Positions 38,456-42,353 of a stretch of DNA of 59,239 nt are shown here, piece by piece (within the stretch, counting starts at the first letter, position 1; every line of letters starts with the position of its first letter). Made by a program: the position numbers and the translations under genes. The DNA comes from Clostridiales bacterium (GTDB taxonomy: Bacteria > Bacillota > Clostridia > Christensenellales > Pumilibacteraceae): assembly GCA_022511445.1 (NCBI GenBank), contig JAFLVE010000109.1, positions 1-59,239 of the forward strand, given 5' to 3'. The notes beneath the pieces were generated by a model. It saw nothing but the letters and a program-made list of their open reading frames with translations, was not told the DNA's origin and searched no databases.

Positions 38456-39403
38456 TTGGAGATTACCGAAGACAACTTAAAGGCGGTATGCGGTGCATAT
38501 GATACCAATCTAAAAGCGATTGAATCGTTATGCGGCGTTACCGTGCGAATTACCGGCACGGGTCCCGTAATTTCGGGCGACGGCGCGGAGGAGGCGACGC
38601 TTTTAATGGAAAAGCTTGCCGCTCTTGTCGAGCGCGGCGAAAAGATAGACCCCGCCACGGTAAAACGCGTGCTCGATATTCTCCGCACAGATAAGGGCGG
38701 CGTGGAGGCTATATACTCCGTTTCGGCATGCACCACCGCGCACGGCAAAAAAATTTTCCCAAAGACCGTCGGGCAAAAGAAGTTTATAGACGCGGTCAAC
38801 GCCAACCTTATGACTTTTGCAGTCGGACCCGCAGGCACGGGAAAGACCTATCTCGCCGTTGCGCTTGCGGCGGCGGCGGTCAAGCGCGGCGACGTCGATA
38901 AGATTATTTTAACCCGTCCCGCGATAGAGGCGGGCGAAAAGCTCGGTTTTTTACCCGGCGATTTGCAGATGAAGGTCGACCCGTATCTTAGACCGCTGTA
39001 CGACGCGCTCGGCGATATGTTCGGCGGCGACTACATTAAGCTTATCGAGCGCGGAATAGTGGAGATAGCGCCTCTTGCGTACATGCGCGGAAGAACGCTC
39101 TCCCGCGCGTTCATGATACTCGACGAGGCGCAAAACACCACGCCCGAACAGATGAAAATGTTTTTAACCCGCTTCGGCGAGGGAAGCCGTGCGATAATAA
39201 CAGGCGACGTTACGCAGATAGATCTTCGCGGCGCGCCGTCGGGACTAATCGAAGCGGAAAATGTGCTCAAAAATATTCCGTCCATTGCATTCGTGCACTT
39301 GACGGAAACGGACGTTGTACGTCACGACCTCGTGTCCAAAATAGTTTCCGCGTACAACGACTATTCGCAAAGGAGAAATCATGGAACAGACGGAGAAGTC
39401 TAA
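38456..39403 (+). CDS. phoH: PhoH-like ATPase
   Basis: This 315-residue PhoH family P-loop protein has an N-terminal KH-like segment, Walker A 'GPAGTGKTYLA' near residue 122, 'LTRPAIEAGEKLGFLPGDL' and Walker B 'MILDEAQNTTPEQ'. It starts with TTG (GGAG 9 nt upstream) and follows yqfD after 40 bp. The family is linked to RNA metabolism; here it neighbours YbeY and Era as in other bacteria. Its 3' end overlaps pgpH by 23 bp. Confidence 0.95.
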   Translation: MEITEDNLKAVCGAYDTNLKAIESLCGVTVRITGTGPVISGDGAEEATLLMEKLAALVERGEKIDPATVKRVLDILRTDKGGVEAIYSVSACTTAHGKKIFPKTVGQKKFIDAVNANLMTFAVGPAGTGKTYLAVALAAAAVKRGDVDKIILTRPAIEAGEKLGFLPGDLQMKVDPYLRPLYDALGDMFGGDYIKLIERGIVEIAPLAYMRGRTLSRAFMILDEAQNTTPEQMKMFLTRFGEGSRAIITGDVTQIDLRGAPSGLIEAENVLKNIPSIAFVHLTETDVVRHDLVSKIVSAYNDYSQRRNHGTDGEV

Positions 39404-40850
39404 AAGTAATTCCGCAGAGCCCTCTAAGGCGCCGATAAGCGCGTACTTTTGGCTTGCGGGAATTTTCGCAATAGTATTCGCTGTTATCTACATAGCGCTT
39501 ATTTTGCGAGTGCATTTTTTGGATATTCCGAGCGGGGAATCGGTTATAAGCGAAACGGCGTCGAACAGCTTGTTTGCGCTCGTTCTCGTCGTCATGCTGA
39601 GCGCGTTGTACACTTATACCGTTGTATCGCGTAAAGAGCTTTTGTTAAGCCTTAGAGAGGCGGGCGCAATAATGACCGTGTTCGCGCTCGTTACGACGAC
39701 AAACATCTTTCTCGCACACGTCAGCCCGTTCGCCATGTTTGTTGCGCTTACGTCGCTGCTTGCGCTCCCGTTTTCCAAAAAACGCGACGCGTTTATCCTC
39801 AACGTGTTTACTTGCCTTATATCTTCCTTCTCGCTTATTAACATTGCGGAATCGACGCACCTTCCCATAATTATTTTTACTTCCATTGCGGGGCTTTTGT
39901 GCGGAGCGATTGCGGCGTACAGCTTCCCCAACGGAATGACGCGTATCGCCTCGATATTCCGTTCGCTTGTTACTTCGGTTTTCGTAATCGGTATGTACGC
40001 CGTGCTTCTCTGCGCGTACTCGCTCGACGCCGCTCAGCTTGTCGATAATATTGTTTTTATCGGACCGTTTGCCGCAGGGCACGTATTGCTTGCGGGTATT
40101 CTCGTTCCGATTATCGAGAGCATATTCAACATAACGACAGACTCCAAGCTGGTGGAGCTTACCAATCACAAGGCGCCGCTTATTCACAGGCTTATAACGG
40201 AAGCGCCCGGTACGTTTAACCACAGTCTTTCTCTTGCCAACTTTGCGGAGATTTGCGCCAACGCGATAGGCGAGGATCCGTACCTTGCAAGGGCGTGCGC
40301 CTACTACCACGACGTGGGTAAGCTTAATAATGCCGAGTATTTTACGGAGAACCAGGCGGGCTACAACCCTCACGACGATATTCTGCCCGAGGTGTCTGCG
40401 GAAATTATCCGTCAGCACACGACTGACGGCTATGAGCTTTGCAAAAAGTACCACATCCCGGAGGAGGTCGCGCGCATAACGATAGAGCACCACGGCACGC
40501 TTCCCATAGCGTACTTTTACAATAAGGCTCAAAAGCTGACGGACAGCGACGTCGACATGGATGAATACCGTTATCACGGCGAAACCCCCACCGGAAAAAT
40601 CGGCGCGATTATTATGATTTGCGACGCGGCGGAGGCGGCGATTCGCGCCATGGATAATCCGGACGGCGAGCGCGTGGACAAGTTCTTGAAAAAAATGATT
40701 GACGACAGACTGCGGCTCGGCCAGTTTGACAACTGCTCAATAACCATGAAGGATCTTAACGCGCTCAGAGAGGCTATTGTAGGCGCGTACGGCGGTCTGT
40801 TCCATAAACGTATCAAATACAACAACGGACGCGGTGGCGACAATGATTAA
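39381..40850 (+). CDS. pgpH: c-di-AMP phosphodiesterase PgpH lacking the extracellular sensor domain
   Basis: This 489-residue 7TM-HD protein has the HD phosphodiesterase domain at ~250-480 ('NHSLSLANFAEICANAIG', catalytic HD in 'ACAYYHDVGKLNNAEYF', 'EHHGTLPIAYF'). PgpH/YqfF proteins hydrolyse c-di-AMP to pApA. Bacillus YqfF is about 711 residues, with a ~250-residue extracellular 7TMR-HDED domain between the first two helices. Here only about 20 residues separate them ('LRVHFLDIPSGESVISETAS'), so that sensor is missing while the membrane bundle is retained. AGGAG precedes the ATG. The next gene overlaps its stop by 8 bp. Confidence 0.9.
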   Translation: MEQTEKSKSNSAEPSKAPISAYFWLAGIFAIVFAVIYIALILRVHFLDIPSGESVISETASNSLFALVLVVMLSALYTYTVVSRKELLLSLREAGAIMTVFALVTTTNIFLAHVSPFAMFVALTSLLALPFSKKRDAFILNVFTCLISSFSLINIAESTHLPIIIFTSIAGLLCGAIAAYSFPNGMTRIASIFRSLVTSVFVIGMYAVLLCAYSLDAAQLVDNIVFIGPFAAGHVLLAGILVPIIESIFNITTDSKLVELTNHKAPLIHRLITEAPGTFNHSLSLANFAEICANAIGEDPYLARACAYYHDVGKLNNAEYFTENQAGYNPHDDILPEVSAEIIRQHTTDGYELCKKYHIPEEVARITIEHHGTLPIAYFYNKAQKLTDSDVDMDEYRYHGETPTGKIGAIIMICDAAEAAIRAMDNPDGERVDKFLKKMIDDRLRLGQFDNCSITMKDLNALREAIVGAYGGLFHKRIKYNNGRGGDND

Positions 40851-42171
40851 GCTTACAGGCGACTATCAGCCCGAATTTTTGCGCCTTGCGGGAATAGTTT
40901 TCGACATGCTCGAGTTGTCGGGGTGCGCGTCGGTCGACGTGGCGCTCATAAACGACGAGGAAATGCGCGAGCTGAATAAATCCACTCGAGGCGTGGACAA
41001 GCCGACCGACGTACTCAGCTATCCCGCGCTGTCCGAGATTAAAGCGTTTGATAAAGCCAATTATCCCGAGGACTTCGACAGAATGCAAAACGCGGTGGTT
41101 CTCGGCGAAATAGCGATTAACACCGACGCGGCGGCACGGCAGGCGGAGGAGTTCGGAACGGGTGAGCGCGAGATAAACTATCTGTTTGTTCACGGACTGC
41201 TGCATCTCCTCGGTTACGACCATATCGAGGAAAATGATAAAGAGAAAATGCGCGCTCTCGAGGAGAAGGCGCTTTCGGCAAAGGACGAATCGGTTGTCGT
41301 CGCGGTCGTGGGCAGACCGAACGCAGGCAAAAGCTCCATCGTAAACGCCATTGTGGGGGAAAAGGTTTCTATCGTTTCACCGAAGCCCCAAACCACGCGC
41401 GACCGTATTACGGGTATATGTACCGAGGGCAACAAGCAAATAGTGTTTTTGGACACCCCGGGAATGTTCAAGCCGCGCACGAAGCTTGACGAACACCTTG
41501 ACAAAAGCGTAAAAAGCGCGCTCGGCGGCGACGCGGACGTCGTCGTCCTTGTTCTCGACAGCACGAAAGGCGTGACGCCCGACGACGAGAAAACGATTAA
41601 TTCGCTTATAAAAAGCGGCGCGCCGCTGTATATTGTCGTCAACAAAACCGACCTAAAGGGCTACGAAGCTATTTATCCCATACTCGATAAGCTGAATAAG
41701 TACATGAGCGGAGATAACGCCGTAAAAGACGTTATACCCACAAGCTGTCGAAACGGAAACAATATCGAGCTTCTCAAAAAGATATTAAAAGGCGAATGCC
41801 GCGAGGGCGGGTTTTTGTTCCCGCCCGACGAGTATACCGACAGACCCGTCAAGTTTATTATAGGCGAGACCATTCGCGAAAAAGCGCTGTTGTTTTTGCA
41901 GGACGAGATTCCGCACGGCGTGGGAGTTGCGGTGCTTTCCGTCGACGAGAACTCGTCGCCCGTCCGCATTACCGCCGACGTAATTGTGGACAGACAGTCG
42001 CACAAGCGCATAGTGATAGGCGACGACGGCGCAATGATTAAAAAGATAGGCAGCTATGCCCGCCGCGATATTGAGCAGATGCTCGATACAAAGGTTTTTT
42101 TGGAGCTTTTCGTAAAGGTGCGCGAGGGCTGGCGCGACCGACAAAACATTTTGCACGATATAGGATATTGA
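40843..42171 (+). CDS. YbeY-Era fusion: rRNA maturation factor joined to GTPase
   Basis: This single frame of 442 residues holds two normally separate proteins. Residues ~1-148 are YbeY, with the zinc-binding 'HGLLHLLGYDH' (His117, His121, His127), an endoribonuclease-like factor for 16S rRNA maturation. Residues ~149-442 are Era: G1 GRPNAGKSS from 157, G3 DTPG, G4 NKTD and a C-terminal KH domain ('QSHKRIVIGDDGAMIKKIG') that binds the 16S 3' end. Both parts are full length and motif-complete. No stop or start-site signal separates them (linker 'EKALSAKDES'). In relatives dgkA and cdd often lie between these genes. The ATG at 40843 overlaps pgpH; an in-frame GTG 3 codons earlier is possible. 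Confidence 0.92.
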   Translation: MIKLTGDYQPEFLRLAGIVFDMLELSGCASVDVALINDEEMRELNKSTRGVDKPTDVLSYPALSEIKAFDKANYPEDFDRMQNAVVLGEIAINTDAAARQAEEFGTGEREINYLFVHGLLHLLGYDHIEENDKEKMRALEEKALSAKDESVVVAVVGRPNAGKSSIVNAIVGEKVSIVSPKPQTTRDRITGICTEGNKQIVFLDTPGMFKPRTKLDEHLDKSVKSALGGDADVVVLVLDSTKGVTPDDEKTINSLIKSGAPLYIVVNKTDLKGYEAIYPILDKLNKYMSGDNAVKDVIPTSCRNGNNIELLKKILKGECREGGFLFPPDEYTDRPVKFIIGETIREKALLFLQDEIPHGVGVAVLSVDENSSPVRITADVIVDRQSHKRIVIGDDGAMIKKIGSYARRDIEQMLDTKVFLELFVKVREGWRDRQNILHDIGY

Positions 42172-42242: not shown

Positions 42243-42353
42243 ATGACCGAGGAAGAGCGGAAGATGTGGGAGCTTTTTTGCATGACAGGCGAGCCGAGAT
42301 ATTACTCGATGTACGCCGAGATGAAAAATCGCAACCGAGACGAAATCGAATAA
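42243..42353 (+). CDS. YqzL-family small protein
   Basis: This 36-residue protein reads 'MWELFCMTGEPRYYSMYAEM' after a short charged start. It resembles YqzL ('W..F..TG....Y..F'), the small protein encoded just upstream of recO in many Firmicutes. It has a very strong Shine-Dalgarno (GGGAGGTG) and lies 9 bp before recO, exactly the conserved position. Its function is unknown; coupling of recO expression is one possibility. Confidence 0.75.
   Translation: MTEEERKMWELFCMTGEPRYYSMYAEMKNRNRDEIE

Follow-up and report, generated by a model that had tools for sequence, protein, structure and literature searches.

We found that the RNA-cutting enzyme YbeY and the GTPase Era, ribosome-assembly factors that most bacteria make as separate proteins, are encoded as a single polypeptide in the window, the whole 59,239-nucleotide stretch of DNA that was analysed. 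We estimate a probability of about 85% that the product is one intact, bifunctional protein which, judging from the sequences, would serve as the only YbeY and the only Era of the cell throughout the genus. The fusion gene occupies one unbroken frame with no internal stop, both in the ORF reading and in the translation, and contains the following domains and motifs.

40843..42171, + strand: ybeY-era fusion gene, with an ATG start at 40843 and a TGA stop, 442 codons
40876..41277, + strand: YbeY domain, residues 12-145; PF02130 at 114.9 bits (cut-off 25) and TIGR00043 at 117.3 bits (cut-off 45)
41191..41223, + strand: YbeY zinc-site motif HGLLHLLGYDH with H117, H121, and H127, read directly from the translation
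41299..41646, + strand: Era GTPase domain (MMR_HSR1), residues 153-268; PF01926 at 96.2 bits (cut-off 21.9)
41905..42135, + strand: Era KH domain (KH_2), residues 355-431; PF07650 at 57.6 bits (cut-off 22)

The Era G motifs are intact in the translation (G1 GRPNAGKS, G3 DTPG, and G4 NKTD), and the Era equivalog models of NCBIfam are exceeded, with 321.7 bits against a cut-off of 237 for NF000908 and 256 bits against 116.25 for TIGR00436. On the YbeY side, H117, H121, and H127 are invariant in all 14 aligned proteins of the genus. The pattern HxxxHxxxxxH is the zinc site of YbeY. The catalytic motifs of both fused domains are intact; the endoribonuclease activity of YbeY with its role in 16S 3'-end processing, and GTP hydrolysis and 16S 3'-end binding by Era, are predicted. 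The profile scores and motifs bear out the sequence-only reading, which had described a motif-complete YbeY followed by a complete Era.

With YbeY placed N-terminal to a complete Era in one frame, the protein belongs to the YbeY-Era fusion type described in a 2023 review (PMC10582724). This type of fusion is already known, and we report a new instance of it, not its first occurrence. In the sections of the literature consulted here, fused YbeY-Era in clostridia was already published by Wood et al. in 2019 (PMC6738653), and the 2023 review (PMC10582724) names an N-terminal YbeY as by far the commonest fusion of Era, occurring in several Clostridia, some Selenomonadales, and Thermoleophilum album, while it treats the function of the YbeY-fused Era as an open question. 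We found no mention of fusions in the consulted sections of PMC9159920. The published clostridial fusions come from the same broad bacterial group and likewise carry YbeY ahead of Era in one polypeptide, whereas linker lengths, sequences, and a number of origins were not found in those sections. The Era-RNase III fusion of some Rickettsia, as presented in the consulted part of the review (PMC10582724), similarly joins Era to an rRNA-processing nuclease, but the nuclease is of another family and this fusion is absent from the window.

The fusion gene is located in an operon-like run on one strand, which consists of a yqfD-type gene, phoH, the gene of an HD-domain protein, ybeY-era, a very small frame, and recO. 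Three of the flanking genes are as follows.

38456..39403, + strand: phoH-type gene, upstream; PF02562 at 293.1 bits (cut-off 27), start codon uncertain
39381..40850, + strand: gene of an HD-domain protein, upstream of ybeY-era; PF01966, HDIG; 489 codons
42357..42992, + strand: recO, downstream; TIGR00613 at 84.8 bits (cut-off 48.7)

The HD-domain protein gene runs 8 bases into ybeY-era, which suggests coupled translation of the two. Related bacteria with separate ybeY and era genes (phoH - ybeY - era - recO) share the phoH-type, HD-protein, and recO flanks and the same motifs, but have two genes where the window has one, with dgkA or cdd between them in some species. Between 41150 and 42400, we counted two promoter-like sites versus a mean of 1.0 in shuffled sequence and eight terminator-like sites versus 1.9. 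The promoter-like site near the junction is on the opposite strand, the terminator-like sites of the coding strand fall within the frame of Era, and both counts were taken as uninformative. The small frame between ybeY-era and recO, at 42243-42353 on the + strand, has 36 codons, begins MTEEERKMWELFCMTGEPRYYSMYAEM, and carries GGGAGG ahead of its ATG; we take it to resemble YqzL of Bacillus subtilis.

Conservation of the fusion in the genus

The sequence-only reading had proposed a search for the same fusion in related genomes. Such a search showed that 19 of the 20 genomes of the genus (g1), that of the window included, carry it with a junction of equal length. In a profile search of these 20 genomes (E ≤ 1e-4 for YbeY and E ≤ 1e-40 for Era), each of the 19 gave one YbeY match and one Era match, both in one frame. 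Neither protein was found in the twentieth genome, G008, which is 78% complete and split into 410 contigs. No second copy of ybeY or era was found by profile search in any of the 20 genomes, which are incomplete drafts with possible gaps. The proteins of the other 18 fused congeners are 72-96% identical to that of the window. When the whole protein was searched against the window's genome, one full match was obtained together with six others, all within residues 129-284, which correspond to the GTPase part. Beyond the genus, a Terriglobia MAG matched the protein in the Era part only.

We compared the rates of change along the gene in the 19 genus sequences and obtained pN/pS values of 0.26 for the junction, 0.25 for the YbeY body, 0.16 for the Era G part, and 0.20 for the KH part. 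With pS at 0.65-0.69, near saturation, these ratios are rough, and the weight is carried by the unbroken frame and the third-position excess. Judged by these patterns of substitution, the junction evolves as coding sequence under codon-level constraint.

The assembly of the window is a fragmented draft in 118 contigs with a completeness of 92%, and errors happen in such drafts. A stop codon lost or a frame shifted in sequencing or assembly would then have merged two separate genes, an outcome that the sequence-only reading had itself raised in the form of an error removing a stop at the junction. However, the junction has an identical in-frame length in all 19 congeners that have the genes, it is under codon-level constraint, and 13 of the assemblies, all MAGs, stem from several isolate series and not from one study, an observation on the same data that adds no further sequences. 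Because the fusion is conserved in 19 of the 20 congeners, window included, we rejected the lost-stop artefact for practical purposes, and we regard the probability of any such error as negligible in view of the conserved fusion, frame, and constraint.

The junction and the in-frame methionine

The region that joins the two domains contains three features.

41224..41310, + strand: junction between the YbeY zinc motif and G1 of Era; 29 codons (87 nt) in each of the 19 congeners that carry the gene
41248..41250, + strand: in-frame ATG, Met136, present in 19 of 19 congeners
41275..41286, + strand: linker proper, residues 145-148 (4 residues), from the AlphaFold2 secondary structure; pLDDT of 83 for residues 141-150 and 74 for residues 151-160

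The length of the junction is the same in all 19 sequences of the genus and, with 29 residues between the motifs, stands at the lower end of the range of 29-74 found in the 43 fused loci measured. In the AlphaFold2 model, the last YbeY helix spans residues 130-144 and the first Era strand spans residues 149-157, leaving a linker of about four residues instead of the approximately ten given in the sequence-only reading. The model is of moderate confidence, being built from 14 sequences with a mean pLDDT of 70.5 and a pTM of 0.60, and the relative placement of the domains in it is uninformative. The unfused YbeY proteins of the window's family often extend 24 residues beyond the zinc motif to a stop, and a start of M-K/R-S-G-F is common in the unfused Era proteins of the family. 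The fusion, which is without the last YbeY residues and the start methionine of Era, reads ...MRALEEKALSAKDESVVVAVVGRPNAGKS; of the M-K/R-S-G-F start common in its unfused relatives, the Met and the GF are absent in this genus. Foldseek matched Era and YbeY structures separately, with none described as both among the best 50, and a sequence search of solved structures returned YbeY and Era as separate chains among the best 60 of 88 matches.

The sequence-only reading had stated that there is no stop, start, or ribosome-binding site between the two domains. The part on the stop stands and the part on the start does not, as Met136 is encoded by an in-frame ATG near the junction. The presence of this ATG in 19 of 19 congeners, preceded in six of them by a 5-nt SD-like match, would fit a scheme in which initiation at Met136 produces free Era in addition to the fusion; the protein could also be cut at the junction. 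We consider both unlikely. A methionine is located 8-10 residues past the zinc motif in all 88 unfused and all 43 fused YbeY tails measured (the motif-based counts of tails and spacing cover the 131 of 169 loci with clear motifs). Because every one of the 88 unfused tails has this methionine, Met136 is best explained as a conserved residue of YbeY rather than as evidence of an internal start. The longest SD-like match ahead of Met136 is at most 3 nt in 10 of the 19 congeners, including the window with 3 nt, 4 nt in three, and 5 nt in six; SD strength is a weak test here because, ahead of the fused gene's own start codon, the match is only 3 nt long in 14 of the 19. An Era started at Met136 would carry 21 residues ahead of G1, approximately 12 above the usual number. 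As for cleavage, the modelled junction consists of a helix and four residues and would offer little exposed linker, and we infer that the fused protein is not separated by proteolysis. A dedicated internal start is not supported by the conservation of the methionine in unfused tails or by the SD-like matches, with some species less clear; a minor shorter product may be made in the six congeners with the 5-nt match.

Distribution and probable origin of fusions in the order

We examined 170 loci from the same order, one per genome, which were hand-picked for spanning matches and listed frames of at least 440, with some unfused loci included. Both genes were present in 169 loci, and 44 of these were fused, a proportion that is not a rate given the non-random choice, made partly from among the matches listed. 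The fused loci comprise 19 from the genus of the window, four from three other genera of its family, 18 from family f25, two from f27, and one from f24. All 18 f25 loci examined are fused, having been chosen for spanning matches or long frames (a nineteenth f25 genome, G235, was left out). In the family of the window, many relatives have YbeY and Era as two proteins; the loci examined there come from 65 of its 68 genomes with a match, all except G073, G081, and G085. Not all spanning matches seen at first look are fusions, and G150, G278, and G212, for example, have an internal stop and were classed as separate. A long frame around Era can also mislead, as in G084, which has a frame of 472 and is unfused.

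A quick tree was built from Era alone with 169 loci (LG+G4, no mixture model), from which G260 was dropped as it has no YbeY match. On this tree, the fused or unfused label requires seven parsimony changes, three of them forced by well-supported branches, versus approximately 39 for shuffled labels, a count that cannot separate gain from loss of the fusion. For the fused f27 pair, the tree program issued a warning that long branches meet there. Fused and unfused members are found side by side in genus g73 of f24 and in genus g4 of the window's family. Junctions were measured in 43 of the 44 fused loci.

Among the 125 unfused loci, with a mechanical choice of the start codon, ybeY and era overlap in 50, lie 0-20 nt apart in 35 more, and are separated by more than 100 nt in 16. 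In genera g8 (12 of 12 examined) and g18 (8 of 8) of the window's family, the unfused genes overlap by ATGA. In these loci (e.g., L085 and L077), the last ybeY codons double as an SD-like sequence and the ATGA start of era. An SD-like match of at least 4 nt falls within the last ybeY codons in 22 of the 25 overlapping pairs of the family. The distance from the zinc motif to G1 is 98 nt in the unfused g8 and g18 loci versus 87 nt in the 19 fused loci, a difference of 11 nt. One small deletion could produce the fusion from the g8 and g18 arrangement. Such a deletion in an overlapping pair would have removed the ybeY stop together with the ribosome-binding site and start of era, and a net loss of 11 nt could restore one frame while dropping stop, SD, and start at once. 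Judged from these lengths, the deletion route is the most likely origin, with g8 and g18 as stand-ins for an ancestor, the sister group of the genus not being settled by the Era tree.

YbeY is fused to a different partner in family f4, of which 11 loci were examined. In all 10 loci with a YbeY match, the YbeY frame is longer by 139-151 residues, and the extension is a cytidine deaminase according to Pfam in the three tested (L146, L143, and L138); the other loci with an extended YbeY are L150, L155, L149, L158, L166, L179, and L180. In both kinds of fusion, the C-terminus of YbeY is joined to another domain, but the partner in f4 is a metabolic enzyme, and era stays a separate gene close downstream. 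We know of no tie between cytidine deaminase and 16S maturation. A literature search revealed no description of a YbeY-cytidine deaminase fusion, as judged by the titles and the starts of the abstracts of the papers listed. At L178:698-1501 (+ strand), YbeY is extended at its C-terminus by 95 residues, for which Pfam gives no match at an E-value of 1e-5 and which, by eye, are perhaps a decayed deaminase domain.

Proposed joint action of YbeY and Era

YbeY takes part in maturing the 3' end of 16S rRNA and makes contact with uS11, and Era attaches to that 3' end and to the platform. In the sections consulted, a YbeY-Era two-hybrid contact in E. coli was positive in two of four plasmid combinations (PMC5101352), and reviews describe both genetic suppression and contact between the two (PMC10582724, PMC6912228). 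Such independent evidence of contact and suppression is stronger evidence of joint action than the fusion is. Because ybeY fuses to a cytidine-deaminase gene too, the fusion alone is weak proof of a YbeY-Era partnership. Together, the conservation in 19 of 20 congeners, the conserved frame, and the published contacts lend good support to the sequence-only reading of a natural fusion of two interacting factors of 16S and 30S maturation.

We propose that the GTPase and KH domains of the fused protein would bind the nascent 30S platform and that the YbeY domain would be carried to the platform in cis with each binding of Era, so that a single binding event would combine the GTPase cycle of Era at the 3' end of 16S rRNA with the action of YbeY near uS11. 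Action in cis, taken alone, seems to us slightly better than an even chance, and the fusion may represent a selected 1:1 functional unit. It may instead be a neutral by-product of gene order that is tolerated and not selected, ybeY often lying just ahead of era so that small deletions or frame-shifts would join the two from time to time. Neutrality is compatible with the fused protein doing both jobs, and we give it somewhat less than even odds. Overlapping or nearly touching ybeY and era genes are common, the ybeY tail also fuses to an unrelated neighbour in the form of the f4 deaminase, and the junctions of other fusions differ greatly in length, reaching 74 residues between the motifs, all of which would fit neutrality. 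However, the fusion persists in all 19 genus members with the genes and in the 18 f25 loci examined, the length of the junction is invariant within the genus, and contact between YbeY and Era has been reported independently.

The repeated switches between fused and unfused within a single order, the shortness of the junction in this genus, and the contrast with the YbeY-deaminase fusions go beyond the consulted sections of PMC6738653 and PMC10582724. The cooperation of YbeY and Era is unsettled. A natural fusion with a very short linker is a ready subject for structural work on the state that YbeY and Era form with the 30S subunit, and the fused and unfused relatives collected here allow comparison. 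We also suggest, tentatively and with considerable doubt, that the fusion originated several times in the order and that the junction in this genus is nearly rigid, in which case YbeY would keep one position relative to the G domain of Era while the two act on the nascent 30S platform. If this fixed geometry is true, the fused protein would preserve in natural form a YbeY-Era complex that is otherwise transient.
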